A stretch of 64,000 nucleotides of DNA, taken from contig NZ_KB908454.1 of the NCBI RefSeq assembly GCF_000381965.1, positions 124,001 through 188,000 of the forward strand, in the 5' to 3' direction. Made by a program: the position numbers and the translations under genes. Source of the stretch: Oceanimonas smirnovii ATCC BAA-899 (GTDB lineage: Bacteria > Pseudomonadota > Gammaproteobacteria > Enterobacterales > Aeromonadaceae). Position 1 is the first letter of the stretch, and every line of letters begins with the position of its first letter. The notes beneath the pieces are model-generated. The model saw only the letters and a list, made by a program, of their open reading frames with translations, made no database searches and was not told the DNA's origin. Positions 20,835 through 61,165 of this stretch are shown here, piece by piece.

Positions 20835-20955
20835 CCCCCTTCGGGGAGCTGTCAGCCGTAAGCTATCAGCTGTAAGTCAAACACCCTGGTCAGCAAGCAC
20901 AGCGCCGTATCTTCACGCTATTGATGTTTGCTTATAGCTTAAAGCTGATGGCTTA
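20835..20955. repeat. AGCT-heptamer element, gene-free copy with inverted arms
   Basis: Left arm at 20840-20884 (GGGGAGCTG, then AGCT-spaced units, ending AGTCAAACACC). Right arm at 20924-20955 (ATGTTTGCTTATAGC, then TTAAAGCTGATGGCT). The arms are inverted copies in which AGCT is kept and the three bases between vary. About 40 unrelated bases lie between. Same design as 50574-50746 and 56852-57379. Confidence 0.75.
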
Positions 20956-50573: not shown

Positions 50574-50746
50574 AGCTGTAAGCTTTAAGCTATCAGCTGT
50601 AAGCAGCCCGAAGTCGCTTGTAAACCCGTGTCACTCCGGCGAAGGCCAGAGTCCATGTAACAGGCGGCTAGTGATACTGCAGGCACCATGCTGTGCCTGC
50701 AATACTCGGTGTTTGTCTTACAGCTTAAAGCTGACAGCTTACAGCT
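50574..50746. repeat. AGCT-heptamer element between frmA and fghA
   Basis: Left arm 50574-50604 and right arm 50708-50746 are inverted. Comparing 30 bases, 26 match and all four differences fall in the three-base spacers between AGCT cores. The right arm begins GGTGTTTGTCTTACAGC. The interior holds a GCAGGCAC/GTGCCTGC hairpin (50679-50700) and no gene. Confidence 0.8.
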
Positions 50747-53872: not shown

Positions 53873-54055
53873 AAACCCCACCCTGACAGCTCAGCTCCTC
53901 TCCCTTTTAAGGGAGAGGCTGGGAGAGGGTTGTAACAAACCCCACCCTGACCCTTCACCTTGGCAAGGGGAGGGAACTGTTTTGCTCCTCCCCCTTTTCA
54001 AGGGGGAGGTTGGGAGGGGGTTAACTTACAGCTTACAGCTCCCCAAAAGGGTTCT
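53873..54055. repeat. GC-rich hairpin repeat fused to AGCT-heptamer tail
   Basis: Three CTCCCC-type hairpins followed by GGGGGTTAACTTACAGC, then TTACAGCTCCCCAAAAGGG. It encodes the last residues and stop of cysQ on the minus strand. Confidence 0.8.
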
Positions 54056-54821
54056 TCCCGCCCAGCACCAGAAAGTGCGGGTTCAGCACTTCACGAGTAT
54101 TAGCATAACTCAGCGGCTCGCCGTTCAGCTGCACCACAGTGCCGCCGGCCTGCTCTACCACACACTGGGCGGCGCCGGTGTCCCACAATGAGGTGGGGCC
54201 AAGGCGAGGATAAATATCGGCGGCATGTTCTGCTACCAGGCATAGTTTAAGTGAGCTGCCCATGGGCACCAGCTCATGTTCCCCCAGCTTTTCCAGCAGG
54301 GCAGGCAGCTCGCCGCCACCATGAGAGCGGCTGCCCACCACCCGCCAGGGCGTGCCGGCCTGATGTTCAGCCACGTTAATGGCCACAGGCGCACCATCGC
54401 CTTCATATTTAAAGGCACCCAGACCTTCGGCGGCCATATAACCCACATTCAGAGCAGGCGCATACACCACGCCCAGCACCGGCTTGCCGTGCTCAATAAG
54501 CGCAATATTCACGGTAAACTCGCCGTTACGCTTAATGAACTCCTTGGTGCCATCCAGCGGATCCACCAGCCAATAGCGGCCATGCTCATCGGCACCGGCA
54601 AAACCGGCGGTGTCTTCTTCCGACAAAACCGGCGCTTTCAGCGGCAGTTCAACCAGGCCTTGCACAATCATATTGTGGGCGGCGGCATCGGCTTCAGTAA
54701 GCGGTGACTTATCTTCCTTTTGCTCAACGGTAAATTCGCGGCCGTAGATTTCCATAATGGCGGCACCGGCCTTGCGGGCCAGCGCGTCTACCTGATTAAG
54801 CAATTCCTGAGTAATGAGCAT
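54033..54821 (-). CDS. cysQ: 3'(2'),5'-bisphosphate nucleotidase CysQ
   Basis: Hydrolyses PAP to AMP, relieving product inhibition when PAPS is used. 262 residues of the inositol-monophosphatase fold: DKSPLTEADAAAHN, metal site LSEEDTAG, WLVDPLDGTKEFIKRNGEF and LWDTGAAQCVVEQAGG. AAGGA precedes the ATG. The stop lies in a repeat (FGEL-stop). Downstream of cysNC on the same strand, separated by a repeat. Confidence 0.95.
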   Translation of the reverse strand: MLITQELLNQVDALARKAGAAIMEIYGREFTVEQKEDKSPLTEADAAAHNMIVQGLVELPLKAPVLSEEDTAGFAGADEHGRYWLVDPLDGTKEFIKRNGEFTVNIALIEHGKPVLGVVYAPALNVGYMAAEGLGAFKYEGDGAPVAINVAEHQAGTPWRVVGSRSHGGGELPALLEKLGEHELVPMGSSLKLCLVAEHAADIYPRLGPTSLWDTGAAQCVVEQAGGTVVQLNGEPLSYANTREVLNPHFLVLGGKNPFGEL

Positions 54822-54838: not shown

Positions 54839-54912
54839 TTGCTCCTCCCCCTTTTCAAGGGGGAGGTTGGGAGGGGGTTAACTTACAGCTGACAGCTTAA
54901 AGCTTATAGCTG
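54839..54912. repeat. GC-rich hairpin plus AGCT-heptamer repeat
   Basis: CTCCCCCTTTTCAAGGGGGAG hairpin (two arms of seven) and GGGGTTAACTTACAGCTGAC followed by AGCTTAAAGCTTATAGC, between cysNC and cysQ. Confidence 0.8.
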
Positions 54913-54915
54913 TGT

Positions 54916-56817
54916 TTACCCGATAAACCCTTTTTCTCTCAGCACGGCAATCACCGCATCCGCTGCCTCATCGGCACTCATGGCGGTGGTGTCGAGACGG
55001 ATTTCCGGGTTCTCGGGCTGCTCATAGGCCGAGTCGATGCCGGTGAAGTTCTTCAGCTCGCCGCGGCGGGCTTTTTTATACAGTCCCTTCACGTCACGCT
55101 CTTCCGCCACGTTGAGCGGCGTATCCACGTGCACTTCAATAAACTCACCCTCTGCCAGCATTTCCCGGGCCAGACGGCGCTCGGCGCGGAACGGTGAGAT
55201 AAAGGCGGTCATCACCAGCAGGCCGGCGTCTACCATCAGCTTCGACACTTCTGCCACCCGGCGAATGTTTTCTACCCGGTCGGCATCGGTAAAGCCAAGG
55301 TCTTTATTCAGGCCGTGGCGCACGTTGTCGCCGTCCAGCAGGTAGGTGTGGTTGCCCAGCGCGTGCAGCTTTTTCTCCACCAGGTTGGCAATGGTGGACT
55401 TGCCGGCACCGGACAGGCCGGTGAACCACAGCACCGCCGGCTTCTGGTTTTTGGCCAGAGCACGGGCGTCCTTGTTCACATCCACATGTTGCATGTGAAT
55501 ATTCTGGCTGCGGCGCAGGGAGAAGTTCAGCATGCCGGCGGCGACCGTGTTGTTGCTCAGCCGGTCAATCAGAATAAAGCCGCCGGTGTCCTTGTTGCTC
55601 TGGTAGTCATCAAAGGCAATGGCCCGGTCCAGGCTGAGGTTGCACACCGCAATGCCGTTTAAATCCAGCTTCTTGGCGGCCATGTGCTCCAGGGTGTTGA
55701 CGTTCACCTGATATTTAATATCGGTAATGGTGGCGGTCACGGTTTTGGTGCCGATTTTCAGCAGATAGGGGCGGCCCGGCAGCAGGGCGTCGTCATGCAT
55801 CCACACCAGGGTGGTTTCAAACTGATCGGCGGTGGCAATGGGATCCTCGGTGGTGGAGATCACATCACCGCGGGAAATATCAATTTCATCCGCCAGGGTC
55901 AGGGTCACCGACTGGCCGGCCACGGCCTGAGCCAAATCGCCGCCGTGCACCACAATGCGCGCCACCGTGCTTTCCTTGCCGGACGGCAGCACGCGAATGC
56001 GGTCACCGGGCTTGATTACGCCGCTGGCAATGGTGCCGGAGAAGCCACGAAAGTCCAGGTTGGGGCGGTTCACCCACTGCACCGGCAGACGGAACGGCGC
56101 GCGCTGCATGCGGGTGTCGTCCACTTCCACGGTTTCCAGGTAGCCCATCAGGGTGGTGCCGTGGTACCAGGGCATGTTCGGGCTGGGCTCAACAATGTTA
56201 TCGCCCTTGAACGCCGACAGCGGAATATAAGTAATGCTCTCAAGGTTCAGTTGCTCAGCAAACTGCGCGTACTCTTCCTTGATGCGGTTAAAGGTCTCTT
56301 CCGCGTAGTTCACCAGATCCATCTTGTTGATGGCCACTACAATATGACGAATGCCCAGCAGTGACATCAGAAAGCTGTGACGGCGGGTCTGGGTAAGAAT
56401 GCCTTTGCGCGCGTCCACCATCAGAATGGCGGCATCGGCGGTGGACGCACCAGTCACCATGTTGCGGGTGTACTGCTCGTGCCCGGGGGTGTCGGCCACA
56501 ATAAACTTGCGCTTATCGGTAGAGAAAAAGCGATAGGCCACGTCGATGGTGATGCCCTGCTCGCGCTCGGCGGCCAGGCCGTCCACCAGCAGGGCAAAGT
56601 CGATATCTTCCCCCTGAGTGCCGTACTTTTTGGAGTCGGCCTCCATGGCCGCCAGCTGATCTTCAAACAGCATTTTGGACTCAAACAGCAAACGCCCAAT
56701 CAGGGTGCTCTTGCCGTCATCCACGCTGCCGCAGGTAATGAAGCGCAGCAGACTCTTTTGTTCGTGCTGTTTGAGGTATTGTTCGATATTACTTTCTATC
56801 AGAGATGACTGATGCAT
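54916..56817 (-). CDS. cysNC: bifunctional sulfate adenylyltransferase subunit 1 / APS kinase
   Basis: GTPase subunit that drives ATP sulfurylase, fused to APS kinase: makes APS and then PAPS. 633 residues. The N-terminal EF-Tu-like GTPase has [18 protein letters not shown] and NKMDLV. Two beta-barrel domains follow. The C-terminal APS kinase begins about residue 455 with Walker [10 protein letters not shown] and [15 protein letters not shown]. Fusion is of NodQ type. cysD lies upstream on the same strand, but a repeat-bounded four-helix-bundle gene sits between them. Confidence 0.96.
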
Positions 56818-56851: not shown

Positions 56852-57379
56852 AGCTATCAGCTTTAAGCTGTCAGCTGTCAGTCAGACACTTAATTCAGCG
56901 ACGTGATCAGCCCGTTGATCATTTTGGAAATTTCTCTTGTCTCCTCCAGCCATGCTTTTCCGGGCTCAGAGGTGATGTAACCAATTTCCATGCCGATATA
57001 AATTTGTGTTCTCAGCTCGGCGCATGAGCCTCGGGCAATCACTAAAAAATGTGTTTTATCTTTAACTGTCTGTCGCGTCATTCCCTCAGCAATATTGCTG
57101 GGAATGGACAAGCCGGAGCGGGTGATCTGGTCTCTGAAGCCAAAATCCTTGAGATCCTTCAGGGCTTTATACAACTCAGCCGAAAGTCGGGCCGACCGTT
57201 TCCACACCTGCAATTTCTCAAAATTCATCACACACTCCTTGTTAGCTGTCAGCGTTTTAGCCGTCAGTTATTAGCTATCAGCTATCAGCTATCAGTAAGC
57301 GATCAGCTGCCTTCATGCTCAGCACTATGTCTTCAGCCCCGGTGTTTGTCTGACAGCTGACAGCTTAAAGCTGATGGCT
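56852..57379. mobile_element. putative mobile cassette: inverted AGCT-heptamer ends around a four-helix-bundle gene
   Basis: The ends 56852-56889 and 57342-57379 are 38-bp inverted repeats with 35 matching positions, built from AGCT plus variable triplets. They read GTGTTTGTCTGACAGC inward to outward. Between them lies one small gene (56890-57228) plus a further run of AGCT units (57243-57293, including three AGCTATC in tandem). It splits cysD from cysNC. Shorter gene-free relatives are at 20835-20955 and 50574-50746. No target duplication was identified. Confidence 0.6.
56890..57228 (-). CDS. four-helix-bundle protein (23S rRNA intervening-sequence / Avd-like family)
   Basis: 112 residues from the ATG at 57228 behind AAGGAG. 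The pattern FEKLQVWKRSARLSAELYKAL, then FRDQITRSGLSIPSNIAEGM, then FLVIARGSCAELRTQI and a last helix GKAWLEETREISKMIN is typical of the S23/IVP four-helix-bundle family, related to the Avd accessory protein of diversity-generating retroelements. Function unknown; presumed nucleic-acid-binding pentamer. Its stop codon touches one inverted repeat of the cassette, and the other lies upstream. Confidence 0.88.
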   Translation of the reverse strand: MNFEKLQVWKRSARLSAELYKALKDLKDFGFRDQITRSGLSIPSNIAEGMTRQTVKDKTHFLVIARGSCAELRTQIYIGMEIGYITSEPGKAWLEETREISKMINGLITSLN

Positions 57380-57395
57380 CTTCTGACGCGAAGCG

Positions 57396-59150
57396 TCAGA
57401 AATAACCTTCCTGTTTTTTCTTCTCCATCGACGCGGCGGAGTCGTGGTCAATCATGCGGCCCTGGCGCTCGGACGTTTTGGTCAGCAGCATTTCCTGAAT
57501 AATGTCGGGCAGGGTGGCGGCGGTAGACTCCACCGCGCCGGTGAGCGGGTAGCAGCCAAAGGTGCGAAAACGCACGCTTTTCATCATGGGCACTTCGCCG
57601 TCTTTCAGCGGCATGCGCTCGTCATCCACCATGATCAGGGTGCCGTCGCGCTCCACCACCGGGCGCTCGGCGGCGTAATACAGGGGCACAATGGGAATGT
57701 TCTCGAGGTGAATGTATTGCCAGATGTCCAGCTCGGTCCAGTTGGACAGGGGGAAGACGCGAATGGACTCGCCCTTGTGCTTGCGGGCGTTATACTGCTT
57801 CCACAGCTCGGGACGCTGGTTTTTCGGATCCCAGCGGTGCTGCTCGGTACGGAACGAGAAAATACGCTCCTTGGCGCGGGACTTCTCTTCATCGCGGCGG
57901 GCACCACCAAAGGCGGCATCAAAGCCGTATTTATCCAGTGCCTGCTTCAGGCCTTCGGTCTTGGTGATGTCGGTATGAATGGCCGAGCCGTGAGTAAAGG
58001 GGTTAATGTCTTTTTCAATGGCTTCCGGGTTCACATGTACCAGCAGCTCCATACCCAGCTTCTTGGCCATGTAGTCGCGAAACTCGTACATTTCACGGAA
58101 CTTCCAGCGGGTATCCACATGCAGCAAGGGGAAGGGCGGCACAGAAGGATAAAACGCCTTCATCGCCAGATGCAGCATAACGGCGCTGTCTTTGCCAATG
58201 GAATAAAGCATGACCGGGTTGTCGGCCTCGGCCACCACTTCCCGCATAATGTGAATACTTTCGGCTTCCAGCCGTTGCAGGTGAGTAAGGTTCATTGAAG
58301 TCCTCGTTGTTACAGAAGTAGCCGAATTGCTGGCAGCCAAAGGCTGCACGCGACGACCATGGTGTTTTTGCACCGGCTCTGCCGGTAAAAAAGAATAAGC
58401 AGCAGGGTGAAACACACTCAGCCGGGAGTGTGCATTCAGCCACTGCTGAATGGCGTTATTACGGGATAAATCGCAACCGCGCAGCACCAGGCAAACCGAC
58501 GGTTCATCTGCCAGCAGGCGCTCAAAAAACGCAATAAAGTCATTGGCTGCAGCGGGGTAGGGCACCATCATCCAGCGTTGCCGGCCTTTGGCGGTATGAA
58601 CATAAAGCTGGGTATAAGCGCCAAGATTTTTTATGCCGCCCCACAGCACGCGGGCTTCTGCATGCCGGGCACGTTGCTCAATAAGGGGCAACGCATGCCT
58701 GCGCCATTGTTCGCAAGCCGGGTGAACAAACTGCTCAAACACCGTTTGCTCAGGCTCTCTCTGCAACTGGTGACGTTCCATAAAGCGCAGCAAAGAGCGT
58801 TCGCTTACCTTCACGTTCAGCTCGGTTGCCAGCCACTCAAGCACACGGCCTGCGTGCCAGAGCCCACCTGCCGGCGGTGCAGTGTGCAAGCGCTGCAGCA
58901 GCACGTGCTCCTGCTCGGCAGACAGCGCCCTGCCTTCACCTTGTTGCCGGCCTCTGGGCTTTACTTTTATGGCATCCCAGCCACCGGCGGCAAAGGCTTT
59001 GCAGGCGGCAATAATGGTGGGGTTGCTTAACCCGGTGGCAGCAGAAACCTGAGCCAAAGTAGCACCGCCAAGGCGCAGCTCCACCGCCTGTTTCCGGCGC
59101 TGGTTTAACGTTGCTGGCGATAAATCTTTAATACTTTGTTTGTTGTTCAA
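57396..59150 (-). CDS. cysD: sulfate adenylyltransferase subunit 2 (CysD) with an in-frame transposase-like N-terminal extension
   Basis: Residues 286-584 are a complete CysD (PP-loop ATP pyrophosphatase): [68 protein letters not shown]. They pair with CysN to make APS. The canonical start (58295) has its own GAGGA site. The frame stays open upstream for 285 codons to a TTG with a poor ribosome site. That part resembles an IS630-type transposase: HTH ([20 protein letters not shown]), winged helix ([16 protein letters not shown]) and a DDE-like domain in which the motif expected as VLDNA reads VLRGC. Normal CysD may be made alone, the fusion too, or both. Confidence 0.85.
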
Positions 59151-60997: not shown

Positions 60998-61165
60998 TTA
61001 ACCCCACCCTAACCCTCCCCTTGGCAAGGGGAGGGAACCGTTCCGCTCCTCCCCCTTTTCAAGGGGGAGGTCGGGAGGGGGTTAACTTACAGCTGATAGC
61101 TTACGGCTTACAGCTCCCCGTAGGGGCAGGCTTACAGCTCCCCGCAGGGGCAGGCTTACCGCTCC
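60998..61165. repeat. composite repeat: GC-rich hairpins, AGCT heptamers and duplicated AGCTCCCC units
   Basis: CTCCCCTTGGCAAGGGGAG and CTCCCCCTTTTCAAGGGGGAG hairpins, then GTTAACTTACAGCTGATAGC, then two units TTACAGCTCCCCG-AGGGGCAGGC at 61108-61156. The last part is read as the C-terminal tail of pgi. Confidence 0.85.

Follow-up and report, generated by a model that had tools for sequence, protein, structure and literature searches.

An S23 gene between inverted heptamer arms at cysD-cysN of Oceanimonas smirnovii may belong to an overlooked family of mobile DNA behind scattered heptamer repeats

The S23 cassette between cysD and cysN

We analysed a window of 64,000 nucleotides from Oceanimonas smirnovii ATCC BAA-899 (contig NZ_KB908454.1, positions 124,001 to 188,000). 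A small gene of the S23/IVP family lies here between two open reading frames which, from their family names, we take to be cysN-cysC (54916..56817) and cysD (57396..58295). The features of the locus, in window positions, are the following:

54916..56817, minus strand: cysN-cysC, host gene downstream of the cassette, for which orthologues were searched
56852..56889, minus strand: outer arm, inverted, 3′ of the S23 gene, about five units of AGCT-type heptamers
56890..57231, minus strand: S23/IVP gene (predicted four-helix bundle), 113 aa from GTG, 112 aa from ATG
about 57240..57295, no strand assigned: heptamer array inside the cassette, 5′ of the S23 gene, flanked by the gene start and the right arm
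57342..57379, minus strand: outer arm, inverted, 5′ of the S23 gene
57376..57407, minus strand: hairpin adjoining the arm and taking in the cysD stop codon
57396..58295, minus strand: cysD, host gene upstream of the cassette

The outer arms (56852-56889 and 57342-57379) are 38 nt long each, have 452 nt between them and are complementary at 35 of 38 positions (92 %), which confirms the inverted 38-bp arms around a small gene reported in the preliminary description. The gene begins with GTG, with an ATG one codon further in, and its stop codon stands directly against the left arm, as was also reported. AGCT, however, is not invariant in the arms as had been claimed, since AGCC, AGTC and GGCT are also present in them. 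The cassette has terminal inverted repeats, as IS elements and MITEs do.

The gene product belongs to the S23/IVP family, with scores above the curated cut-offs for both PF05635 (E 5e-34, 117.2 bits against 33.8) and TIGR02436 (E 7.7e-33, 113 bits against 24), and it also matched NF008912 (E 3e-52). The AlphaFold model displays four helices with a mean pLDDT of 98.1, and the protein is confidently predicted to be a four-helix bundle. In alignments of 36 and 33 proteins, the residues Q34, R37, S41, N45, E48 and E71 were invariant. The entries of the solved relatives 2gsc and 2rld each hold five chains of the sequence, and the S23 protein of Xanthomonas campestris is stated to be a homopentamer in the available text of PMC4990558. 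Searches with the window protein as query gave no S23 match in phages. Judged from its S23 gene, of which all above-cut-off matches were S23-type or hypothetical proteins, the cassette has no recognised transposase; its other open reading frames overlap this gene.

We recovered 25 copies of cysN from 19 of the 23 genomes of the genus. Direct overlap with cysD was seen in 11 of the 25 (by eye), in line with the earlier statement that the cassette splits a usually contiguous pair. An S23 gene lies between cysD and cysN in 10 (one of them at a contig end) and an S23-free gap of 108-203 bp in 4 (partly by eye). An S23 gene occupies the same cysD-cysN pair also in two loci from other families of the order (L031 and L032, by eye), and therefore the insertion is either old or travels with the operon.

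In several sister genomes the sequence of the hairpin at 57376-57407 repeats the 3′ end of cysD in inverted orientation (by eye; eight sequences folded). At L186, L187, L189, L194, L200 and L209 this inverted copy abuts the arm and matches the codons of the genome's own cysD. The genome of the window contains a second cysD-S23-cysN locus (L002, contig C11, close to the contig end) with a shortened S23 frame; its S23 end resembles the S23 of the window and its 5′ arm and hairpin differ (both by eye).

AGCT-type heptamers and geneless pairs in the genome

The window contains 25 copies of the pattern AGCTNNNAGCT, whereas 100 shuffled versions had 1.2 on average and never more than 5. In the whole genome, the three-unit pattern AGCTNNNAGCTNNNAGCT was found 99 times and its backwards-read control 0 times. 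Two further pairs of arms in the window consist of the same heptamer type as the cassette:

20847..20953, no strand assigned: geneless inverted arm pair (locus L218)
50574..50746, no strand assigned: geneless inverted arm pair (by eye)

These are the gene-free related arms that had been noticed near 20835-20955 and 50574-50746, and both are real. The first has an inverted-partner score of 22, the null maximum being 11. Of 20 stretches from the same genome, 15 have an inverted partner arm scoring above the highest of 20 shuffles and 5 have none; two of the latter (L235 and L236) hold weak arrays only. Geneless pairs are common in this genome, and by their appearance the view of them as non-autonomous derivatives is supported.

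Some other features were seen near these arms. The geneless pairs L217, L223 and L229 enclose sequences that look like intrinsic terminators (by eye). A palindromic repeat, CCTCCCCTT...AAGGGGAGG, stands beside AGCT-type arms at 53880-54060, 54840-54911 and 61000-61160, as well as at L219 and L220 (by eye). The AGCT-type units at L234 have a long array of another heptamer, CAGAGTC, nearby.

Period-7 arrays beside S23 genes

In related genomes, 7-nt repeats flank most S23 genes, and the heptamer (AGCTNNN, GTGAGGG, GGGACTA, GTGTTGA and others) differs by protein clade. To quantify the repeats, we scored self-matches at lags 4-20 in the 300-bp flanks of S23 genes, using windows more than 600 bp from the gene as controls. 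Three sets of loci were used: 30 loci from the window's genome and 60 relatives (set 1); 29 loci from the class, mostly one per family and the least related of the sets; and 80 loci from many phyla, the best among 589 candidates. The sets overlap slightly, L062 and L113 being the same element (100 % over protein and flanks); many loci of set 1 are orthologous, and contig ends leave some loci with a shortened flank or none on one side.

A lag-7 score of at least 14 was reached in 0.50 of 60 flanks in set 1 (0.006 of 171 distant windows), in 0.62 of 58 flanks in the class set (0.050 of 160 windows) and in 0.50 of 157 flanks in the phyla set, where 3 of 160 were too short (0.033 of 1122 windows). 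Apart from lag 7 and its multiple 14, each lag brought 0 to 0.045 of the flanks near an S23 gene to this score. Counted by locus, 95 of 139 have such an array on at least one side (21/30 in set 1, 23/29 in the class and 51/80 in the phyla set), and 123 of 139 have one scoring at least 9 (29/30, 27/29 and 67/80, respectively). The other 16 of the 139 loci lack a lag-7 array scoring at least 9, which counts against a model of gene and arms as a cassette. In a fresh set of 30 phylum loci, the fraction with such an array was 0.559 among 59 flanks and 0.026 among 116 distant windows, and 22 of the 30 loci had one. For genes of the ParE toxin from the same class sample, an array was present in 1 of 48 flanks (6 of 30 loci were skipped as too short). 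The enrichment of S23 flanks for heptamer arms for which the preliminary description had suggested a test is thus present in many groups as an association with period 7, with differing heptamers.

Not all units are 7 nt long. Units of 8 nt were observed on both sides of L111 and L136 and on one side of L126 and L145, the assembly of L145 being labelled as an archaeon. The unit length is 15 nt in L096 and L107 and 6 nt in L133.

Pairing, size and unit number of the arms

Among loci with both sides scoring at least 9, the consensus heptamers of the two sides matched better in inverted orientation in 75 of 86 and better in direct orientation in 11; in the fresh set the numbers were 19 and 2 of 21. 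Elements with matched arms (58 loci) have a median size of 481 bp, with quartiles of 448 and 503.5. The view that the gene and its inverted heptamer arms form one unit is supported, as the layout recurs across many bacterial groups.

Regarding the number of units per arm, the distribution over 220 arms peaks at 5 (66 arms) and 6 (57), with 4 in 15 arms, 7 in 16 and a long tail; this peak depends on a rule that accepts units with four matches of seven, under which 20 of the 220 arms have 0-3 units, and on a score cut-off that removes short arrays. When units need five matches of seven, the commonest numbers become 5 (71 arms) and 4 (56), summed over arms with and without GGG. Many S23 genes lie between inverted arms, each of them a degenerate array of about five 7-nt units. 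We also considered that a 7-nt period might serve to place stop codons in all frames, but dropped this idea, as 95 of the 220 arms have stop codons and shuffling gives 90, i.e. no enrichment.

For similar repeats, host factors have been proposed before. As suggested for Geobacter (PMC2700814) and for Xanthomonas and Nostoc (PMC4692102), the repeats could be binding sites of a host regulator or could form G-quadruplexes; their association with S23 would then be secondary. PMC4692102 also describes four as the preferred number of units, which is what a quadruplex requires. Many of our arms are indeed G-rich on the inward strand, with G over C in 70 versus 18 of 105 arms and 64 versus 10 of 90. 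Against this, 179 of the 220 arms lack GGG and yet have the same narrow range of unit numbers as the 41 arms with GGG, so quadruplexes are disfavoured as the cause of the unit number. Moreover, the arrays are concentrated by S23 genes in many groups. We regard an origin of the repeats as host sites or quadruplexes as very improbable.

The unit number can be compared with the protein instead. About five units per arm against five subunits is a fit and not a proof, and binding of the arms by a putative S23 pentamer is plausible by analogy with the relative reported as a homopentamer.

Heptamer sequence, protein clade and host genome

When two S23 proteins were at least 70 % identical (54 pairs), their heptamers agreed at about 6.3 of 7 positions; for pairs below 50 % identity the figure was about 3.7-4.0. 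For S23 pairs within one genome (n=9) the heptamer identity was 3.9 of 7. Over 114 of the 139 loci, i.e. those with arms scoring at least 10 and proteins of at least 90 aa, heptamer and protein similarity correlated with r 0.245, which none of 2000 permutations reached. The class and phyla sets alone gave r 0.159 (87 loci), likewise unreached by permutations. Each locus of these two sets was counted as its own genome, while record names show a shared genome for L076/L119, L116/L124 and L123/L131. The single element L062/L113 entered the correlation twice; L113 was dropped from the flank-homology test.

Because descent at one site explains part of this correlation, we examined pairs without any hit between their flanking genes. 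Here the heptamer identity rose from 3.76 for proteins 25-40 % identical to 5.46 for those 65-75 % identical (24 pairs), the flank-homology test itself covering pairs at least 50 % identical. With a looser cut-off, none of the 39 pairs at least 75 % identical had hit-free flanks, and most close pairs share a site. The flank hit between L035 and L043/L044 is a 26 % match between distant enzymes, and these loci are therefore also at different sites.

The heptamer sequence thus follows the protein clade, at a nearly fixed unit length. Recognition of AGCT as such, put forward in the preliminary description, is not supported, because other clades carry quite different heptamers. What holds generally, judged from sequence, is that the arms have a period of 7 nt and match each other in inverted orientation; the heptamer itself is free, and AGCTNNN is the version of this clade.

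Arrays were also compared between genomes with and without S23, in one 20-kb stretch each from 20 of 46 S23-matching and 20 of 183 other genomes of the class (400 kb per group; a non-random choice from long contigs). Lag-7 arrays scoring at least 12 numbered 12, in 7 of 20 S23-bearing stretches, versus 0 in the 20 S23-free ones (Fisher p=0.008), and at a score of at least 14 there were 7, in 6 of 20, versus 0. Such a contrast was confined to lags 7 and 14. Six S23-bearing stretches had arrays scoring at least 14: in three of them the heptamer agrees with that of the resident S23 at 6 of 7 positions, and in three the best agreement with the one S23 compared is 3 or 4 of 7. Of the 23 genomes of the window's genus, 18 have a detected S23 gene and 22 have arrays. 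Fourteen genomes of sister genera have no S23 and three pattern matches altogether.

It could be argued that the arrays come first, by slippage or another process, and that S23 genes settle in them later. Many arrays lack the S23 gene, and arrays occur in 4 of the 5 genus members without a detected S23, which counts against the cassette model. However, the heptamer tracks the protein rather than the genome, as the nine same-genome pairs indicate, the arms are matched and inverted, and the 20 S23-free samples hold 0 arrays. The unit counts also peak narrowly and show no steady fall from two, with the reservation that the score cut-off removes short arrays. The order of arrays before S23 genes is already disfavoured by these data and we hold it to be improbable.

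Sites and mobility

Two further sites were compared. Site 1 follows a gene ending in ...YEVFGQLTRVL; 15 of its 23 loci were readable and 8 unreadable, and 3 of the 15 hold an S23 gene with GTGAGGA-type arms. Site 2, after a gene ending in ...WNKWLK and between convergent genes, holds an S23 gene with GGGACTA-type arms in 5 of 23 genomes and geneless pairs of other heptamer types in about 9 of 23; the remainder have remnants or no array. The geneless pairs of Site 2 are given by eye because the two-arm scores use overlapping windows when the gap is short.

The same protein clade with the same heptamer was found at non-homologous sites in L034/L042, L075/L106 (without a flank hit even at E 0.01) and L035/L044, and we take this as mobility on the evolutionary time scale. 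The mobility of the cassette proposed earlier stands in part: one clade and heptamer at unrelated sites and one slot filled by different elements in different species speak for it, whereas the cysD-cysN insertion itself is old. Mobility of gene and arms together is what we infer from these comparisons.

No recent jump was seen among the compared loci. The sole identical pair, in G489, was considered as a recent transposition and rejected, as the copied stretch of at least 4.9 kb holds an rRNA operon and is a duplication of it. Where other places of one genome were compared, the closest similarity was 71-73 % over 278-486 nt, the remaining comparisons yielding short matches or none at all. No target-site duplication was readable at the compared sites, which are too diverged.

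Members within 23S rRNA genes and orientation

The cassette of the window resembles the intervening sequences (IVSs) of 23S rRNA in Coxiella and Leptospira in having an S23 gene in sense between inverted ends capable of forming a stem. It differs in lying between two protein genes, cysD and cysN, i.e. outside any 23S rRNA gene. However, the two groups can coincide. L069 lies within an LSU rRNA gene and has arms starting with CATCAGAAGACAG and a near-inverse copy, its S23 gene carrying internal stop codons. L353 and L354 (both from G489 and identical over 4.9 kb) are in rRNA operons, by test for L353 and by motifs for L354, and their arms are TCAGGAATCAGAGGTCAGGGATCAG and a near-inverse copy. 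These are two distinct S23 genes inside 23S genes with heptamer arms as elsewhere, and S23-bearing 23S IVSs can therefore be members of the group. For Coxiella, the available text of PMC4990558 reports tandem heptamers directly before the S23 open reading frame of the 23S element.

Orientation was determined at 124 of the 139 loci (15 with short flanks were left out), with the strand taken from the longest open frame. Between co-oriented genes, S23 is in sense in 47 cases and antisense in 5 (p 1.3e-9); the other 72 of 124 are mixed or undecided. This bias points to dependence on the host transcript, through read-through expression, an RNA step in movement, or both.

The same bias would be expected if the arms were a shield at the RNA level, a hairpin cut by RNase III or protecting the neighbouring genes, with S23 as a passenger that has another role and neither binds nor moves the arms. 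The arms do stand close to the gene, at a median of 26.5 nt from the start and 13 nt from the stop codon in 58 loci, some geneless pairs contain terminator-like sequences (by eye), and for the 23S element of Coxiella the accessible part of PMC4990558 reports cutting by RNase III and that S23p is probably not made. But a shield requires neither a near-fixed 7-nt period and a narrow number of units nor a heptamer that tracks the protein clade at unrelated sites. We consider a shield with a passenger gene unlikely.

Proposed explanation and relation to known systems

Our preferred reading is that the window probably holds one member of a widespread group of selfish, transcript-oriented cassettes of about 0.5 kb, the arms of which are recognised by a putative activity of S23. 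The gene and the arms would move together on the evolutionary time scale. S23, reported to be a pentamer in one relative, would recognise the arms, each subunit reading one heptamer, and would most likely do so on the hairpin that the arms could form in a transcript or in single-stranded DNA. The geneless pairs would be moved in trans by an S23 that the genome has now or once had.

On a wider reading, to which we give slightly less than an even chance, such cassettes would form a separate class of mobile elements in bacteria with ends set by count and spacing (about five 7-nt units in inverted arms) rather than by sequence, each clade having its own heptamer read by the putatively pentameric S23, one subunit per unit. 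The class would include the S23-bearing 23S IVSs and would be the source of the repeats of Xanthomonas, Nostoc, Calothrix, Geobacter and Beggiatoaceae. If true, this would unite the S23 protein family, the origin of 23S rRNA intervening sequences and the heptanucleotide repeats of several bacterial groups, and it would provide a simple computational rule for spotting such elements. We know of no other mobile element with ends that are fixed in period and number and free in sequence. An overlooked family of mobile DNA may thus lie behind the scattered heptamer repeats.

MITEs, REPIN/RAYT systems and other small palindromic elements likewise have scattered geneless inverted pairs alongside a gene-bearing form, as does the genome of the window. 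Unlike MITEs and REPIN/RAYT, the S23 element has no recognised transposase, and its ends are alike in period and unlike in sequence. A reverse transcriptase or Y1 transposase as constant partner was rejected because several S23-bearing genomes lack one or the other: RVT_1 was matched neither in the window's genome nor in G005, G010, G011, G012, G017 and G021, all S23-bearing, and Y1_Tnp, with one match in the window's genome, had none in the S23-bearing G010, G013 and G017 of the genus. The window protein has weak similarity to the profiles of Avd (E 0.0079) and bAvd (E 0.059), both below the curated cut-offs. Avd belongs to diversity-generating retroelements, from which the window's genome differs by its lack of an RVT_1 match, and it works together with a structured RNA according to the available text of PMC12875486.

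Heptanucleotide repeats have been described as GGGAATC and GGGGAYT in Xanthomonas and Nostoc (PMC4692102, which also cites those of Calothrix), as GGGACCG and as sites of five MTYCTGA units in pairs in Geobacter metallireducens (PMC2700814), and as TAACTGA in Beggiatoaceae (PMC4679880). As far as their main texts go, they resemble the S23 arms in having 7-nt units, few units per array and mostly intergenic positions, with inverted pairs in Xanthomonas and apparently Geobacter. These three main texts contain no word starting with S23 (term search) and explain their repeats otherwise than by S23. Among the matches listed in our literature searches, none linked S23 genes with heptamer repeats generally, and period-7 inverted arms are unstated as a general S23 feature in the text available; most subscription papers were outside reach, and an earlier report is possible.

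Plasmid-borne loci

We found 21 plasmid records with an S23 match. The seven that we read are all cyanobacterial, and six of them have a lag-7 array scoring at least 14 on at least one side; at L210, other lags also score up to 16. Three of the plasmid loci (L212, L213 and L216, the last without a lag-7 array) lie between cas genes, twice between cas6 and cas4 and once between cas10 and a gene of the cmr3 family.
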